Assembly: GCA_913057205.1 (NCBI GenBank)
Contig: CAJXNO010000018.1
Coordinates: forward strand, 1 to 55,043
Direction of reading: 5' to 3'
Length of the DNA: 55,043 nucleotides
DNA from: an uncultured Flavobacteriales bacterium
GTDB taxonomy: Bacteria; Bacteroidota; Bacteroidia; Flavobacteriales_G; Salibacteraceae
The notes beneath the pieces were generated by a model that saw only the letters and a program-made list of their open reading frames with translations, was not told the DNA's origin and ran no database searches. Positions 1,204 through 8,254 of the stretch are shown here, piece by piece. Positions within the stretch are counted from its first letter, which is position 1, and each line of letters opens with the position of its first letter. Both the position numbers and the translations under genes were made by a program.

Positions 1204-1842
1204 TCAGAGGAAGGGATTGTGAATTTTCTCATGTCCTATTGTCGTTTGTGGCCCATGGCCTGAATAGACCGTGTAATCATCATCTAATGTGAAGAGCTGT
1301 TCTCGGATTGAATTTAAAAGAGTCCCATGATCTCCACCCGGAAGGTCTGTTCGGCCAATGCTTTCCCTAAACAAAACATCGCCACCGATCACCATTTTCT
1401 GCTCGTGCTGGATAAATACCAAGTGCCCTGGTGCATGTCCCGGACAAAAACGGATTTCGAATCGATCACCATCCAGATCAAGCTGGTCTTTCTCAGAAAG
1501 ATGAAGCTCACATGAAGGAGAGCTTTCGAAACCTGGAATTCCATACATGCTGGCACTTACTCCTGCCATGTTCATGGTTGGCTCATCGCGTTCATCGTAT
1601 TCCGGTGATAGTCCGTACTCCGAATGGATGAATGCGTTCCCGAACACGTGATCTAAATGACAGTGGGTGTTCAATAATCGGGTAGGGGTCAAGCCCTCAA
1701 AGGCAATAAATGCTTTCAGCTCCTGTTTTTCCATGGGGTCATAGCAACCCGGATCGATGATCCAACAGTTCTTCTGGTCTGAATAGAGGACGTAGGTATT
1801 TTCTTGAAAAGGACTGAAGGTGAATTGGCGAATGTGCACCAT
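1204..1842 (-). CDS. Metallo-beta-lactamase-fold hydrolase (glyoxalase II-like)
   Basis: This 212-residue protein has the metal-binding motif THCHLDH at about residues 59-65, a further metal His in CPGHAPGH, the GGDVLF aspartate motif and a late SGHGPQT histidine. These are the ligands of a binuclear MBL-fold hydrolase. Length and motif spacing fit the short glyoxalase II-like/YcbL group, which hydrolyses thioesters such as S-lactoylglutathione, but the C-terminal glutathione-binding domain of true GloB is absent. The substrate is therefore uncertain. It is likely cytoplasmic, as no signal peptide is seen. Confidence 0.9.
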   Translation of the reverse strand: MVHIRQFTFSPFQENTYVLYSDQKNCWIIDPGCYDPMEKQELKAFIAFEGLTPTRLLNTHCHLDHVFGNAFIHSEYGLSPEYDERDEPTMNMAGVSASMYGIPGFESSPSCELHLSEKDQLDLDGDRFEIRFCPGHAPGHLVFIQHEQKMVIGGDVLFRESIGRTDLPGGDHGTLLNSIREQLFTLDDDYTVYSGHGPQTTIGHEKIHNPFL

Positions 1843-1912: not shown

Positions 1913-4900
1913 ATGATGTTCAAAGGTAGAAGGATTCCATTGCGGCTTGCGACTCTAGTCGCCTCCTTGCTCTTGGCGGGTGAACTGCGCGCGCAGTTCT
2001 ACCACGGGATGCACCATCCTTTTGGAAAGAACCGGATTCAATATGAGCAGTTCGATTGGATGAAATACGAATTCGATCACTTTACGGTTTTCTTCTATGG
2101 CAGGAATAAGAACCTCGCCGTCTTCACTGCGAAGAATGCTGGTGAGATGATCGATGAAATGGAGCAATTCTTTGATTACTCCATGAAGCGCGAACGCACC
2201 CAATTCGTCGTATATCAGAAACTGGAGCATTTCCGGCAGTCCAACGTGGGGATTCCGGAAACGGATGAATCCAACATCGGTGGCACCACCCAGATTGCGG
2301 GATCCAAGATCTTCGTTTACTTCGATGGCGACCTGAACTCATACCGACAGCAGATCCGCGAGGGCATTGCTGAAGTGTTGATCGGACAGATGCTTTTCGG
2401 AGAGAATTGGCGCGAGATGATCAAGAACAACGCTTTGATCAACTTTCCGCAATGGTTCATAGCCGGCTTGACCAAGTATGCAGCGAGACCGTGGGATATC
2501 GAGGCAGACGATCGATTGCGCGACTTGGTTTACCGAGATCGTTACAAGAAGTTTAACCGACTGGGCGAAGAAGATGCCGCGGTGGCAGGAAGGTCGCTTT
2601 GGTATTACATCGGCGAGACCTACGGGACCAACGTGATCCCCAACATCATGTACATGGCACGGGTCACCAGGAGCATTGAGTCTGGTTTTCTCTTTGTACT
2701 GGGTACTTCTATGGAGACCTTGCTGGAAGATGCGCAGCGCTATTTCGAGATGCGCTATGCAAGTGACCGCGAAGGCACACAAGACTTTGAGCCATTCCTG
2801 TATATAAGAAGTCGAAAAGGCAGAGACTTCACAGAGCCTAGGATCAGTCCAGATGGAAGGTACCTTGCCTACGTAACCAACGTCAAAAGCAAGATGAAGG
2901 TGTTCATCTACGACGCTAGCAAAGACCGTAAACGCAAGCGTTACCGCCAAGGCCATAAATTAGATCACATCTACGACACCTCCTACCCGGTAATGGATTG
3001 GAATCCAGTAACCGGCGAGCTGCATGTGATCGTTGAGCGCCGTGGTCGACTGTGGATGCATCGCATCGATCCAAAGGAAGGAGAAACAGGAAAGATCGAG
3101 CTGTTGCGCTTGGAGAAGGTTCTTGATATGAGCTTTTCTCCTGATGGAAAACAAATCCTATTTTCTGCTATAAACGGAGGACAAACAGATATCTACCTCT
3201 ACAGCATCGCTGCAAACAGCCAGAAGCAATTGACAGCAGATATCTATGATGATCGATATCCAGTATTCCTGAACGAGGAGGAAGTCCTTTTCGCATCCAA
3301 CCGAGCCAACGACACCATTGATCTTGCCAAGGACAATTTGAGCTATGCACCTCTTCCTACCATGGACATCTACAAGCTTCCGGTAGAAGACGGTGAGGTG
3401 GCCATGAATTTGACGCAGTCCCCAACAAGCAATGAACGGAAACCCTTGCGCTTGAACAATACGTCGTTCATGTTCGAAAGCGATGAAAGTGGCATCAGAA
3501 ACCGGTATTTCGGACAAATGGATAGTGCGATCGTATCTATTGATACCGCCATCACTTATCGTTACTACGCTAGAACAGAAGCGTTAACGGGTTATCCAAG
3601 GAATTTAACAGGGTTCGACTACGAAGCGAGTGAAGAGAAGCTGGTTGAGCTCTTTCTATACGACGGTGGCTATAGCATGCAGATCAAGGAAGGAGATGAG
3701 GTTACCCAGCCTTTTCTTCCAGTCAACTCGAACTTCAAGCAAAACGAGTTGATCGATCAAGCCAGAGAAGAGCGCGCAGAGCGTGCTGCAGAACCCTTGC
3801 AAGAGGATACGCTGGGCATCACCATCATCCGAAAGAAAGTCTTTGACCAGGATGCGGTGAGTAAGTCGATAGACGATGGCACCATCAACATTTTCGATTA
3901 TCAATTTGATGAGGAGTCCATGCGGGATGCGGCCAAAGACAACGGGGAAAGCCGCAACACAGTATTGATTCCGCGTGATTCGATCAAACAGGACGATGAC
4001 ACCCCCTTCGTGCTTCCTGTGATGCGGAATTATGACCTTGCTTTTGCGGCTACCGATCTCACCACCCAAATGGATTTCGATTACGCTACTGATCTGTACC
4101 AGCCTTTCAATGGCGGTCCCTTCATCAATCCTGGATTAGGAACTTTCCTGAAGGTAGGAATGCTGGATGTGTTCGAAGATTACAAACTCGAAGGAGGCTT
4201 TCGTTACTCCTTCAACAGCGATGGAACGGAGTACTTCATCTCTTTAGAGGATCGGTCGAGGCGACTGGATCGTAAGTACATCCTCCAAAGACAGGCTTTG
4301 ACCACTATCGAAAGCCTGCCCTTGAACCAACGGGTGCAGATCTATCAAGCACGAGGCATCTTTCGTTACCCGATCGATGAGGTGCAATCGGTTCAACTCA
4401 CCGCCACTGGGCGATACGATCGCTTGATCACGCTAGGACAAGACCGTCAAGGCTTAGAGCAGGACGATGAGACTGACTTTTGGGGTGGTGTGAAACTGGA
4501 GTACATATTTGATAACACGCTTGATATGGCGTTGAATATCCGAAGTGGTACACGTTTGAAGGTTTTCGGTGAGCACTATCGCAACATCGTAGATCCATCG
4601 TCTTCGTTGTATGTAACTGGACTCGATCTTCGAAACTATATACCGATCCACCGGGAGTTGATCTGGGCTAATCGCTTGGCGGGGAGTTCAAGTTTTGGTC
4701 CGCAAAAGCTGGTTTACTACATGGGCAGTGTAGACAACTGGATCATTTTGGGCAACCGAGAACGCTTTGATTTTGGCAATGATGTATCTAGAACCCAGGG
4801 CTATCGCTTCCAAACCATAGCAACCAACATGCGGGGCTTCGTGCAAAACGCGAGAAACGGCAACAATTTTGGCGTGCTGAACAGCGAGCTCCGCTGGCCG

Positions 4901-5221
4901 GTGGTGCGTTACTTCACCAACAAACCACTGAAAAGCGAGTTCCTCTCTACTTTTCAGGTGATCGGTTTTGCCGATGTGGGTACGGCATGGACGGGCGTTT
5001 CACCCTACTCAGAAGAGAATGCGTTTAACCGCATCACAGAAACCAATGGCTCAGTAACGGTGACTTATGAGAACCAGACCGATCCGTTCATCGGTGGGGT
5101 AGGTTGGGGCCTCCGAGCGAAGGTTTGGGGTTATTTCGTACGCTTTGATTATGCTTGGGGCATAGAAAACGGCTTATTTTTGAATCCTACGACGCATTTG
5201 TCGTTCGGACTAGACTTCTAA
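1913..5221 (+). CDS. Exported pseudo-peptidase / PD40 propeller / beta-barrel protein
   Basis: The 1102-residue product begins with a signal peptide (cleavage near LRAQ, residue 28). Residues about 45-290 resemble a gluzincin peptidase-MA-like domain, but the catalytic helix reads REGIAEVLIGQ (149-159), so both zinc histidines of HExxH are missing; WFIAGLTKY (181-189) matches the following WFxEGLAEY signature. Residues about 300-560 carry TolB-like PD40 repeats (ISPDGRYLAYVTN, FSPDGKQILFSA). The C-terminal ~350 residues look like an outer-membrane beta-barrel of the surface-antigen (Omp85-like) type and end in an aromatic (GLDF). It heads a chain of abutting genes. Such proteins are often called TolB in Bacteroidota, but true TolB is much shorter. 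The start could also be the next Met. Confidence 0.85.
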   Translation: MMFKGRRIPLRLATLVASLLLAGELRAQFYHGMHHPFGKNRIQYEQFDWMKYEFDHFTVFFYGRNKNLAVFTAKNAGEMIDEMEQFFDYSMKRERTQFVVYQKLEHFRQSNVGIPETDESNIGGTTQIAGSKIFVYFDGDLNSYRQQIREGIAEVLIGQMLFGENWREMIKNNALINFPQWFIAGLTKYAARPWDIEADDRLRDLVYRDRYKKFNRLGEEDAAVAGRSLWYYIGETYGTNVIPNIMYMARVTRSIESGFLFVLGTSMETLLEDAQRYFEMRYASDREGTQDFEPFLYIRSRKGRDFTEPRISPDGRYLAYVTNVKSKMKVFIYDASKDRKRKRYRQGHKLDHIYDTSYPVMDWNPVTGELHVIVERRGRLWMHRIDPKEGETGKIELLRLEKVLDMSFSPDGKQILFSAINGGQTDIYLYSIAANSQKQLTADIYDDRYPVFLNEEEVLFASNRANDTIDLAKDNLSYAPLPTMDIYKLPVEDGEVAMNLTQSPTSNERKPLRLNNTSFMFESDESGIRNRYFGQMDSAIVSIDTAITYRYYARTEALTGYPRNLTGFDYEASEEKLVELFLYDGGYSMQIKEGDEVTQPFLPVNSNFKQNELIDQAREERAERAAEPLQEDTLGITIIRKKVFDQDAVSKSIDDGTINIFDYQFDEESMRDAAKDNGESRNTVLIPRDSIKQDDDTPFVLPVMRNYDLAFAATDLTTQMDFDYATDLYQPFNGGPFINPGLGTFLKVGMLDVFEDYKLEGGFRYSFNSDGTEYFISLEDRSRRLDRKYILQRQALTTIESLPLNQRVQIYQARGIFRYPIDEVQSVQLTATGRYDRLITLGQDRQGLEQDDETDFWGGVKLEYIFDNTLDMALNIRSGTRLKVFGEHYRNIVDPSSSLYVTGLDLRNYIPIHRELIWANRLAGSSSFGPQKLVYYMGSVDNWIILGNRERFDFGNDVSRTQGYRFQTIATNMRGFVQNARNGNNFGVLNSELRWPVVRYFTNKPLKSEFLSTFQVIGFADVGTAWTGVSPYSEENAFNRITETNGSVTVTYENQTDPFIGGVGWGLRAKVWGYFVRFDYAWGIENGLFLNPTTHLSFGLDF

Positions 5222-5602
5222 ATGACCTTGAACGAAATCATCATCCTCATACTGATTGGGCTCTTTGCTGGGATATTCAGCGGACTTTTTGGAATCGGTG
5301 GTGGATTGATCATGGTTCCTGCCATGGTTTTCTTTTTAGCGATGAACCAACATGAGGCACAAGGCACTAGCCTTGGAGTTTTGGTGATTCCAGTGGCAGC
5401 CGTTGCAGCGTTCAACTATTACAAAGCTGGAGCACTGAACGTGAAGTTTGCAGTGATCATCGCCTTGAGCTTTGTGGTGGGTGGATTCTTGGGTTCCAAA
5501 GTATCTCTTGGCGTGAGTGAATTGATGCTGAAGCGCGTCTTTGGTGTGTTGATGCTTCTAATGGCAATCAAACTGATCTTCTTCTCAAAAGCCAGCGCTT
5601 GA
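5222..5602 (+). CDS. Half-size TauE/SafE (TSUP) family membrane transporter
   Basis: This is a hydrophobic protein of 126 residues with four predicted membrane segments. The signature GLFGIGGGLIMVP follows the first helix, as in the TauE/SafE (TSUP) family, which exports sulfite, sulfoacetate and other anions. Full-length members have about 250 residues from two such halves, so this is a single repeat that would have to pair with itself or a partner. The ATG follows the stop codon of the preceding gene directly, and its own stop overlaps the ATG of the next gene, so it is very likely cotranscribed. The substrate cannot be told from the sequence. Confidence 0.85.
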   Translation: MTLNEIIILILIGLFAGIFSGLFGIGGGLIMVPAMVFFLAMNQHEAQGTSLGVLVIPVAAVAAFNYYKAGALNVKFAVIIALSFVVGGFLGSKVSLGVSELMLKRVFGVLMLLMAIKLIFFSKASA

Positions 5603-6786
5603 TGAAGGAACAGATCCAACAACGGGCAAATGAATTGCAAGAGCAGTTGGTTGAAGTCCGCAGGCACTTACACCGATACCCTGAACTCTCCTTTCAAGAG
5701 CATCAGACCGCAGCTTTCGTACTAGAACAGCTGAATTCCTACGGGATCGATGCCAAGTTGCACTCTGAAACGGGTATTGTTGCCTTGATCAAAGGTGAAA
5801 ACGGAGATTCTGATCGTGTGTTGGCTTTGCGGGCTGATTTAGATGCCCTTCCACTACAAGAGAAAAGCGATAAGAACTATTGCTCCGAGCATTCCGGAGT
5901 GATGCATGCGTGCGGGCATGACGTACATACGACATCGCTCCTCGGTACGGCGATGATCTTGCATGATCTGCGATCGTCCTTTGCAGGAACGGTTAAGTTC
6001 ATCTTTCAACCGGGTGAAGAGAAGCTTCCTGGAGGAGCCTCCATCATGATTAAGAATGGAGTTTTGAAGGATCCTGAACCTCAGGCCATTCTAGGACAGC
6101 ATGTTTTTCCTGACCTAGAGGCAGGTAAAGTGGGCTTCCGCGCAGGGAAGTACATGGCGAGCTGCGATGAGATCTACCTGACCGTAAAGGGTAAAGGAGG
6201 TCATGGCGCACTTCCGCACAAGGTCATCGACCCCGTTTTGATCGGTTCACACATTATTGTGGCCTTACAGCAGATTGTTAGCCGACGAAGTAATGCTTTG
6301 CTACCGACCGTATTGTCGTTTGGATGCTTCAATGCCAACGGAGCAACCAACGTCATTCCCGATGAGGCTAAGCTGGAAGGAACCTTCAGAACCTATGATG
6401 AGGAATGGAGAGAAGAGGCCCATAAGTTAATCCGGCAGATCGCTGAACAAACAGCAGGCTCCATGGGAGCAAGTTGTGAAGTCAAGATCGAAAAGGGCTA
6501 TCCTTTTGTATACAATGATCCACTACTGACTGATCAAGCCAGATCAGATGCAGAGGCATACCTGGGAAAGGAGAACGTTGTGGATTTAGAGATGCGTCCA
6601 ACCGGCGAAGATTTCAGCTTTTACACCCATACCTTACCAGGAACGTTTTATCGACTCGGTGTGCGCAATGAGCTAAAAGGCATCACAAGTGCAGTACATA
6701 CCACTACCTTTGACGTGGATGAAGCTTGCCTTTCTGTAGGAAGTGGCTTGATGGCGTGGCTGGCAATTCAAAACCTAAAGAGATGA
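5602..6786 (+). CDS. M20D-family amidohydrolase (N-acyl amino acid/hippurate hydrolase type)
   Basis: The 394-residue metallopeptidase-fold enzyme begins with LVEVRRHLHRYPELSFQE, typical of M20D amidohydrolases. It has the metal-site cysteine and histidine in HACGHDVHT (about 100-108), the FQPGEE glutamate pair, GGHGALPH in the dimerisation domain and a late His in SAVHTTTFDVDE. The family removes acyl groups from N-acyl amino acids or related amides in the cytoplasm. The ATG at 5602 shares its A with the TGA of the TSUP gene. A TTG one codon upstream is possible but less likely. Substrate specificity is not predictable here. Confidence 0.93.
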   Translation: MKEQIQQRANELQEQLVEVRRHLHRYPELSFQEHQTAAFVLEQLNSYGIDAKLHSETGIVALIKGENGDSDRVLALRADLDALPLQEKSDKNYCSEHSGVMHACGHDVHTTSLLGTAMILHDLRSSFAGTVKFIFQPGEEKLPGGASIMIKNGVLKDPEPQAILGQHVFPDLEAGKVGFRAGKYMASCDEIYLTVKGKGGHGALPHKVIDPVLIGSHIIVALQQIVSRRSNALLPTVLSFGCFNANGATNVIPDEAKLEGTFRTYDEEWREEAHKLIRQIAEQTAGSMGASCEVKIEKGYPFVYNDPLLTDQARSDAEAYLGKENVVDLEMRPTGEDFSFYTHTLPGTFYRLGVRNELKGITSAVHTTTFDVDEACLSVGSGLMAWLAIQNLKR

Positions 6787-7208
6787 AGTACATAACCCTA
6801 TCCTTATTCTTTTTGTCGACACTGTTGGTCAGTTGTGCTGATCCACAAGAAAAGAAAGTCCAAGAACTAAAGAAGGTGACCATTGCCTTGCACGACGAGG
6901 TGATGCCGCGCATGGGAGAGATTACAGAGCTTTCTACCGACTTGAAAGACTTACGCGAGGATTTGAAGGCTGATACAACAGATTCAGCCATTAATGAGAT
7001 CGGTGTGATCAATGATCGAATCAAGTCGCTGGATGATGCCTATGAAGGAATGATGCAGTGGATGGCAGACTATGAGCCGCGATTTGAAGAGGAACATCCG
7101 ATGGATTCAGCTGTTGTTTACTATGAACAGCAGCGCACATACATCGAGCGCGTGAAGTTGGATATGGAGAAAAGTATAGAGGATGCAGCAGGGTATTTGG
7201 AGCAATAG
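6783..7208 (+). CDS. Small lipoprotein with a coiled-coil body
   Basis: The ATG at 6783 overlaps the preceding stop by four bases (ATGA). The 141-residue product starts with a lipoprotein signal peptide (lipobox LVSC, Cys near residue 18). The mature part is a charged, helical protein with heptad-like spacing (VTIALHDEVMPRMGEITELS, then LKDLREDLKADT). Similar small lipoproteins in Bacteroidota carry the uninformative name 'viral A-type inclusion protein'; no function is established. It lies between the amidohydrolase and the SCO1-like gene in an overlapping chain, which suggests coexpression with the copper/cytochrome pair. Confidence 0.8.
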   Translation: MKYITLSLFFLSTLLVSCADPQEKKVQELKKVTIALHDEVMPRMGEITELSTDLKDLREDLKADTTDSAINEIGVINDRIKSLDDAYEGMMQWMADYEPRFEEEHPMDSAVVYYEQQRTYIERVKLDMEKSIEDAAGYLEQ

Positions 7209-7842
7209 GTACTCCCTTTTTCTTATAGCGGTTTTAGGTATGGTGATTACAGGCTGTGAAGCGCCTACCCAAGAACTTCCAGTGCTCGGCCCGTACACCG
7301 TTGAAGACCAAATTGTTGATGGTGTATTGCAAACCGATACCGTATTCACTACAATCCGAGATTTTGCATTCGTAGATCAAGACGGTAATAGCATTGATCA
7401 AAGCACGACAAAAGGTAAGGTCTACGTCACCGATTTTTTCTTCACCTCTTGTCCAACCATTTGTCCCAAGATGAAGCAGCAAATGCTACGGATCTATGAT
7501 CGATTTGAGACAAACGATGATGTGTTGTTGCTATCGCACAGCATTGATCCAAAGCGGGATAGCGTTGGTCGATTGAAGACCTATGCGGATAAGTTGGGGA
7601 TATCATCTACAAAATGGCATTTGATGACCGGTGATCGGGACAGCATCTACAGCATGGCCAAGCATTACATGATCGCTGCGCAGGAGGATGAATTAGCTCC
7701 CGGTGGGTTTGCACACAGTGGTGCCTTTCTGCTGGTGGATAAGAACCGCCAGATCAGGGGTATTTACGATGGAACCAATCCTGAAGAAGTAGACCAACTC
7801 ATGCTCGACTTGGAATTCTTGCTGAATGAACCGCAGGGCTAA
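7183..7842 (+). CDS. SCO1/SenC-family copper chaperone or thiol oxidoreductase
   Basis: This 219-residue lipoprotein-like product (lipobox VITGC near residue 25) has a thioredoxin-fold SCO domain. The metal-binding pair is CPTIC in FFFTSCPTICPKMK, SHSIDPKRDS follows, and the third ligand His is in FAHSGAFLLVDK. SCO proteins deliver copper to the CuA site of cytochrome oxidase (or to nitrous oxide reductase) or act as thiol reductants in the periplasm. The ATG at 7183 lies 26 bases inside the preceding gene; no better start is seen. A monohaem cytochrome c gene overlaps its end, which supports a role in respiratory-enzyme assembly. No oxidase subunits are in the window. Confidence 0.92.
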   Translation: MQQGIWSNRYSLFLIAVLGMVITGCEAPTQELPVLGPYTVEDQIVDGVLQTDTVFTTIRDFAFVDQDGNSIDQSTTKGKVYVTDFFFTSCPTICPKMKQQMLRIYDRFETNDDVLLLSHSIDPKRDSVGRLKTYADKLGISSTKWHLMTGDRDSIYSMAKHYMIAAQEDELAPGGFAHSGAFLLVDKNRQIRGIYDGTNPEEVDQLMLDLEFLLNEPQG

Positions 7843-8254
7843 AAGCATATGGGTCATTTTGCTCCTCGCATTGACTGGTATTACCGTGTTTGATGCCTGC
7901 GATTACAAACCACGAAACCAAGGTCAAAAGCTTTACGAAAAAGAGTGTGCTAGCTGCCACATGGAGAATGGACAAGGACTAGGTGAGCTCATCCCACCTG
8001 TGGCGAATGCAGATTATGTGGTGAAACACAAAGAAGACCTGGCCTGCATCATCCGGCATGGGATTGCAGGACCGATGACCGTGAACGGCATCGAATACGA
8101 TGGTGAGATGGAGGGAAATACAAAGCTCTCCGATATTGAGATCAATAACCTCATTCACTACTTATTGGTCGATCTGAACCAGCAGAAAGAGCATTTCGTG
8201 ATCAGCGATATCCGGGCTCAGCTGGAGGATTGTCAATTTCATTCAGACAAGTAG
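7826..8254 (+). CDS. Membrane-anchored monohaem cytochrome c
   Basis: The 142-residue protein has an N-terminal hydrophobic segment ending in a Cys (FDAC), so it may be a lipoprotein. The haem c motif is CASCH at about residues 42-46 and the axial methionine is in IAGPMTVNG, giving a class I cytochrome c fold. It would carry electrons on the periplasmic side of the inner membrane. It starts 17 bases inside the SCO1-like gene and closes the plus-strand chain that begins at 1913. Its last 16 bases overlap, tail to tail, with the minus-strand hydrolase gene. Confidence 0.92.
   Translation: MNRRAKSIWVILLLALTGITVFDACDYKPRNQGQKLYEKECASCHMENGQGLGELIPPVANADYVVKHKEDLACIIRHGIAGPMTVNGIEYDGEMEGNTKLSDIEINNLIHYLLVDLNQQKEHFVISDIRAQLEDCQFHSDK

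Follow-up and report, generated by a model that had tools for sequence, protein, structure and literature searches.

A propeller-bearing Omp85-type protein with a degenerate zinc-peptidase domain in Bacteroidia, and its intact relatives, often in a gene row with a tamB-like gene

What role could be played at the outer membrane by a protein that joins a peptidase-like domain without an active site to a propeller and a membrane barrel? The question is raised by a gene of an uncultured Flavobacteriales bacterium (Salibacteraceae), found in a stretch of 55,043 nucleotides that was analysed as a whole and is called the window here. The initial annotation proposed a degenerate zinc-peptidase domain fused to a PD40 propeller and an outer-membrane barrel. 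The parts of the gene are assigned as follows.

1913..5221, + strand: whole gene, pseudo-gluzincin, TolB-like propeller and Omp85 barrel (1102 amino acids, open frame)
1913..1996, + strand: signal-peptide-like N terminus, residues 1-28 (sequence; helix 7-22 in the AlphaFold2 model)
2012..2782, + strand: predicted gluzincin-fold domain without active site, residues 34-290 (PDB matches to M9, M30 and M1)
2360..2374, + strand: EGIAE, residues 150-154, in the HExxH columns and within helix 141-162 (alignments and model)
2453..2479, + strand: WFIAGLTKY, residues 181-189, equivalent of WFxEGxAEY, with A184 for the third-ligand Glu (alignments and model)
2810..3712, + strand: TolB-like beta-propeller, residues ~300-600 (Pfam PD40 3e-10; PDB matches to TolB and TolB-like proteins)
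3794..3997, + strand: linker, residues 628-695, predicted disordered (pLDDT <50), at the POTRA position of other Omp85 proteins
4025..5218, + strand: predicted Omp85-type barrel, residues 705-1102 (16 long strands, counted by eye from the DSSP list)
4829..4840, + strand: MRGF, residues 973-976 (R974 and G975 invariant in the 19-sequence alignment)

This anatomy of pseudo-gluzincin, propeller and Omp85 barrel is nearly certain. The full-length AlphaFold2 model, built from 74 related sequences (mean pLDDT 83.6, pTM 0.81), consists of helices with a small sheet in the N-domain, then the propeller, the disordered residues 628-695 and a barrel from residue ~711; the mutual placement of the domains is as predicted by this model. 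By comparison with the PDB, the modelled barrel is a BamA/TamA-type Omp85 barrel, with matches to BamA (8xnb_A, Z 25.6, 317 residues aligned, 4.0 A), TamA (Z ~22) and the mitochondrial SAM complex (Z 21.8), so that both the proposed outer-membrane barrel and its closed fold at the C terminus are borne out by prediction; short strands near residues 932, 964, 981, 1040 and 1048 in the DSSP list are taken as barrel loops. MRGF stands at what is presumably the place of the Omp85 loop-6 (V/I)RG(F/Y) motif, and R974, G975, F1019, D1021, G1023, G1064, G1066 and R1068 are invariant in all 19 rows of the 19-sequence alignment. For the propeller, the PDB matches are TolB and a TolB-like protein (Z ~22-24), and PD40, as proposed, exceeds its Pfam cut-off, being the sole family to do so in the 1102-residue protein. 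TolB itself is a soluble Tol-Pal protein that has the propeller fold (Z ~23) in common with the window protein, whereas the NCBIfam TolB model scores 49.6 bits on the latter, far below the cut-off of 343.15. The Pfam search of the window protein matched neither PF01103 nor PF13485 and no POTRA domain, the disordered linker lying where POTRA domains would be expected. The cut-off of PF01103 (Omp85) is exceeded by several relatives of the same architecture, among them those of G132 (1.2e-13) and G274 (3.6e-13) and the site-less one of G162 (6.1e-7); PF13485 (Peptidase_MA_2) matches 8 of the 19 alignment rows, counted without naming them, and HExxH is present in 8 of the 19. Folded alone from 72 sequences (pLDDT 84.6), the N-domain matches M9 collagenase (Z 15.3, 233 residues, 3.9 A), M30 lugdulysin (Z 14.6), M1 aminopeptidases (Z ~14) and a chain of the TFIID entry 7edx (Z 13.4) that we take to be TAF2, a relative of the M1 enzymes. 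From the matches to M9, M30 and M1, residues 34-290 of the model have a gluzincin fold, in agreement with the initial annotation.

The zinc ligands and the catalytic glutamate are absent from this domain in the alignments, as the initial annotation had claimed. It had also equated HExxH with REGIAEVLIGQ (residues 149-159); this segment does align without gaps to HHELVHAVFND of relatives, both in the 19-sequence and in the 139-locus alignment, and the claim can be refined, since the exact equivalent of HExxH is EGIAE and the third ligand is lost as well. The column of the first histidine contains E150 of the window protein, that of the catalytic glutamate G151, that of the second histidine E154 and that of the third-ligand glutamate A184, the last within the WFxxGLxxY signature, which is kept as stated. 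All four residues (H, E, H, E) are kept in 12 of 139 loci, every one of them from other classes of the phylum. The site is missing from the other 127, five of which are gapped there, and the catalytic glutamate is kept in none of the 122 readable site-less loci; the catalytic column of the 127 rows contains glycine in 91 and alanine in 21. Apart from one gapped row, each of these 127 rows (126) has both W181 and G185, which are invariant, unlike the old ligand columns, which are among the more variable ones (entropy ranks 211, 177 and 210 of 254). With W and G invariant and the ligand columns variable, the fold is retained and the chemistry is gone. The window domain, having neither zinc ligands nor catalytic glutamate, is by its alignment a degenerate zinc-peptidase domain. 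The possibility that the degenerate site is an artefact of reading frame or alignment was considered and rejected, the segment being free of gaps and the pattern constant in the readable site-less rows. Outliers are L150, with glutamate in the catalytic column but no histidine there, and L154 and L087, with one histidine each. Judged by mean pairwise identity in 47 lost rows (34.2% in the dead domain, 28.1% in the propeller and 35.3% in the barrel), the dead domain is still conserved; dN/dS is hardly usable, with a finite dS in one of 18 pairs (L031/L032, which gives 0.012, 0.033 and 0.009 across the three domains). Seven of the best 80 loci among 559 candidates, being partial or shorter than 1000 amino acids by the chosen start, were left out of one alignment (A3), and L072 and L114 out of another (A4).

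In a sample of 296 genomes from the phylum, 232 have a match to the window protein. Many listed genomes of family code f5 have no match and those of f18 have weak matches only (~6e-6 to 1e-3); these genomes may have lost the protein or have another in its place. Of 80 further regions, chosen to span family codes and not at random, two (L237 and L249) were dropped because the centre gene was not found; the 78 that contain the gene comprise 48 with an intact site, all from the same phylum but from other classes, and 30 with a lost site, all from the class Bacteroidia. A tree was made from the barrel only, which has no columns in common with the site, for 95 rows (the 78 regions, the window and 16 loci from the best 80 of 559; 48 intact and 47 lost), and a single change on this tree explains the site states, with SH-aLRT 100 for the split; here as in all other trees, the searches were quick, support is by SH-aLRT only and the root is at the midpoint.

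A scan of 296 genomes of the class Bacteroidia with PF13485 gave 29 matches in 28 genomes. Six genomes of family code f2, within Bacteroidia, encode a divergent protein that shares the architecture and whose site is intact. These f2 proteins (L308-L313) have 1041-1073 amino acids, with HE[LM]VHAFQY and WM[VI]EGMAEY, and their gene adjoins a penicillin-binding-protein-like gene, so named from sequence inspection. An intact orthologue elsewhere in Bacteroidia, outside f2, was considered and rejected: among 16 frames of 996-1165 amino acids, none has HExxH in the aligned columns, the HExxH of L290 being a chance occurrence outside them. Seven matches in frames of 245-639 amino acids were not counted as this protein family, and L294 stands outside the alignment. 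The f2 N-domains are nearer to the intact clade by HMM score (171-185 versus 87-105 bits). Further trees, made from 24 intact and 24 lost rows drawn at random plus the six f2 rows (54 in all, the long-branch L272 and L273 having been removed beforehand), place the lost rows on one side of a branch, with support 98 for the barrel and 100 for the N-domain without the site; the f2 group has support 100 in each, and the intact rows lie on one side for the barrel (93) and need two changes for the N-domain. The intact f2 subfamily is placed by these trees outside the lost clade. Intact sites are present in Peptidase_MA at large, and because they are found there and in both other groups, loss is the simpler direction of change. 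A single loss of catalysis in the ancestry of the Bacteroidia copies is highly probable on these sequence comparisons.

Two observations go beyond the initial annotation: sites are intact in other classes, and there is a gene row with tamB. In 26 of the 48 intact rows, belonging to 11 family codes, a tamB-like gene, an RNase R gene and the Omp85 gene directly adjoin one another in this order, with median gaps of 8 bases between the first two and 21 bases between the last two. None of the 30 lost rows has the tamB-like/RNase R row upstream, and 28 of them had >5.5 kb of upstream sequence (Fisher p 1.5e-7 for intact versus lost, a value that ignores relatedness). The row is also missing from the other 22 intact rows, 17 of which have >5.5 kb upstream, and likewise from the window gene, which lies on contig C18, the genome's only PF04357 match being on contig C2. 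Three more intact rows have RNase R upstream with no tamB gene in the stretch (L223 and L224, both near a contig end, and L226). RNase R was assigned by Pfam RNB in the two proteins scanned (2.3e-113 and 6.7e-114). The large protein encoded upstream of it has a hydrophobic N terminus and 1483-1578 residues in seven complete copies, and a profile comparison with Bacteroidia TamB, with seven sequences on each side, gave probability 100 and E 1.3e-54 over 917 columns. The TamB assignment rests on this profile comparison, since Pfam hmmscan of six of the large proteins reported no TamB; it put DUF748 above the cut-off once, and in the other proteins it gave either sub-threshold matches to DUF748 or AsmA or no suitable family. 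A genome search with PF04357 in ten genomes with the row found a match in the large gene in five of them, as the sole TamB match in G236, G051 and G066; the match is elsewhere only in G092, G069 and G282, and there is none in G132 and G267. Two of the large genes (L163 in G236 and L165 in G051) give no TamB by hmmscan, yet 63.9 and 63.8 bits by the genome search. The presence of RNase R between the two other genes means that the row may be an old gene order and not the trace of a complex. In seven tamB regions of Bacteroidia, it was seen that tamB adjoins a TsaD-like gene in G000 and G111 and an 811-residue TamL-like gene in G249 (regions L317, L321 and L323).

The best overall explanation, to which a probability of about 0.5 is given, is that the window protein is a WD40-Omp85 pseudoprotease that would serve in docking or client binding and would descend from a TAM-like, protease-armed ancestor. 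The N-terminal parts of Omp85 proteins lie in the periplasm, and by this usual topology of the superfamily the peptidase-like domain and the propeller of an Omp85-type barrel should face the periplasm too. The initial annotation had the pseudo-enzyme displayed or housed by the barrel; the barrel stands as predicted, and a periplasm-facing position is expected in place of display on the outside. Together with the enzyme domain of PlpD, which was shown to be periplasmic (PMC11116518), this topology argues for a periplasmic location of pseudoprotease and propeller, which may serve there as a docking platform instead of POTRA domains. A periplasmic binding or docking role is somewhat favoured. In the ancestor, the protease-armed Omp85 protein would have partnered the TamB-like protein encoded just upstream, the two forming a TAM-like pair for the transport of outer-membrane proteins or lipids, and the intact protease would remove or trim stalled or faulty clients. 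A comparable task falls to BepA at BAM, a periplasmic zinc peptidase acting in barrel assembly; the likeness is by analogy only, since BepA belongs to family M48 and, unlike the window protein, is separate and active. In Bacteroidia, the protein would have left the tamB gene row, lost catalysis and retained the cleft and propeller as a module that binds a partner or client where the barrel opens into the periplasm; a dead protease could still bind clients. TamL is the published TamB partner in Bacteroidia, and the row with tamB hints that TamB has one more partner. Ancestral work with TamB is given slightly less than even odds from the gene order.

The same architecture could instead be a self-contained factor for barrel assembly or quality control near BAM, a built-in fusion resembling BamA and BamB that has no link to TamB and whose pseudoprotease binds misfolded barrels. 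BamA is the nearest PDB match of the barrel, WD40-Omp85 has been likened to a BamA-BamB fusion (PMC4104836, in the part available), and the 17 intact rows without tamB despite ample upstream sequence fit such a factor; the tamB-like and rnr genes that directly precede the gene in 26 of 48 intact rows speak against it and leave it rather unlikely.

A route of uptake and breakdown in Bacteroidia, suggested by the neighbours of the gene in the window, has a still lower probability.

1204..1842, - strand: divergent metallo-beta-lactamase-fold hydrolase, upstream (Pfam Lactamase_B 7.3e-28)
5222..5602, + strand: half-size TauE/TSUP transporter (Pfam TauE 3e-22, profile positions 1-112 of 237)
5599..6786, + strand: M20-family amidohydrolase (Pfam Peptidase_M20 1.7e-39)

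The barrel would admit, or the cleft would bind, a peptide or N-acyl amino acid, to be carried through the inner membrane by the TauE-type protein and cleaved by the M20 enzyme. The mechanical start of the TauE gene is the base right after the stop codon of 1913-5221, with no base between, which favours such a route; the M20 gene overlaps the TauE gene by 4 bases from its mechanical TTG start, or by 1 base with a start at the ATG codon that follows. Among the window and the best 80 of 559 candidates (81 loci), 47 have TauE as the next gene, 52 have an M20 gene and 36 have a beta-lactamase-fold gene upstream. Where >2.5 kb lies downstream (61 loci among the best 80 of 559), TauE is anywhere in the flank in 38 and M20 in 44, mostly tens to a few hundred bases from the stop. 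These supporting loci are, however, the closest 80 of 559; both genes are within the next three in only 3 of the 30 site-less rows of the 80-region set (L265, L275 and L276), and to our knowledge Omp85 barrels are not nutrient pores. The beta-lactamase-fold gene is upstream in 19 of those 30 rows. After the M20 gene, at 6726-8254 of the window, are small lipoprotein-like, SCO1/SenC-like and cytochrome-c-like genes, named by sequence inspection, with relatives in 8 of the 81 loci each (window included, best 80 of 559). In family codes f9 and f11 (L150, L154-L156 and L266-L270), the site-less gene is immediately preceded, in the same orientation, by a gene for a ~350-residue FAD-oxidoreductase-like protein.

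Transfer or remodelling of lipids at the outer membrane is the least probable account, since for all the likeness of the overall plan to that of PlpD (PMC11116518, in the part available) and the AsmA/TamB-type proteins in the gene row of relatives, the Pfam search found no lipase domain in the window protein.

A search of the open-licence literature, outside which most subscription papers lie, found neither the peptidase domain nor the single loss nor the tamB row; within it, TamB, RNase R and Omp85 occur together in no paper, nor do Bacteroidetes, outer membrane, TolB and 'peptidase MA'. We take PF00149 to be the calcineurin-like phosphoesterase family and not a gluzincin family, and we know of no propeller in PlpD. 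An Omp85-type membrane barrel is the defining feature of the superfamily in the scheme of 2014, which includes POTRA-less members (PMC4104836, in the part available), and at least one POTRA domain belongs to the definition given elsewhere (PMC11116518, likewise). By its modelled architecture the window protein fits the WD40-Omp85 subfamily of that scheme (Heinz and Lithgow 2014, PMC4104836), with which it has in common a TolB-like propeller before an Omp85 barrel and the lack of a detected POTRA; the propeller-Omp85 architecture has thus been known since 2014, whereas the available description of the subfamily has no gluzincin domain, intact and dead states or tamB row. In a word search of that paper's available text, no word began with 'peptidase', and 'metalloprotease' was used for another subfamily. 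This other subfamily, 'Metallo', resembles the window protein in having a so-called metalloprotease domain fused to an Omp85 barrel, but in the same text its domain is given as PF00149 and a propeller is not mentioned (PMC4104836). TamA and TamL share the Omp85 barrel with the window protein (TamA Z ~22), and a TamB homologue stands in the row of 26 of 48 intact relatives; TamA and TamL carry three POTRA domains (PMC12045153, in the part available), whereas the window protein has gluzincin and propeller (residues 34-600), then the stretch predicted to be disordered (628-695), and no tamB beside its gene. Word searches of the TamL paper and of one other did not find 'WD40'. PlpD, an Omp85 protein with a patatin domain whose loss alters membrane lipids, is alike in having an enzyme-like N-terminal domain on an Omp85 barrel, but its domain is lipase-like where that of the window protein is a gluzincin (PMC11116518, in the part available).

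The assignment adds a peptidase fold to an Omp85 subfamily that is widespread and that, in the available text of PMC4104836, was described only as a propeller fusion, and it provides a clean case of one protein family that is an enzyme in one group and a pseudoenzyme in its sister group. It points to an uncommon version of a machine already known in envelope building, and whether TamB can work with a POTRA-less Omp85 partner is now testable. Outside Bacteroidia there may, as a tentative proposal, be a third kind of TAM, in which a POTRA-less Omp85 protein with a zinc protease and a propeller would be the outer-membrane partner of TamB, while the copy in Bacteroidia would have been freed from TamB, would have lost catalysis once and would have become an envelope component with a structural or binding role. 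If this is true, proteolytic quality control would once have been built into the membrane-biogenesis machine itself.
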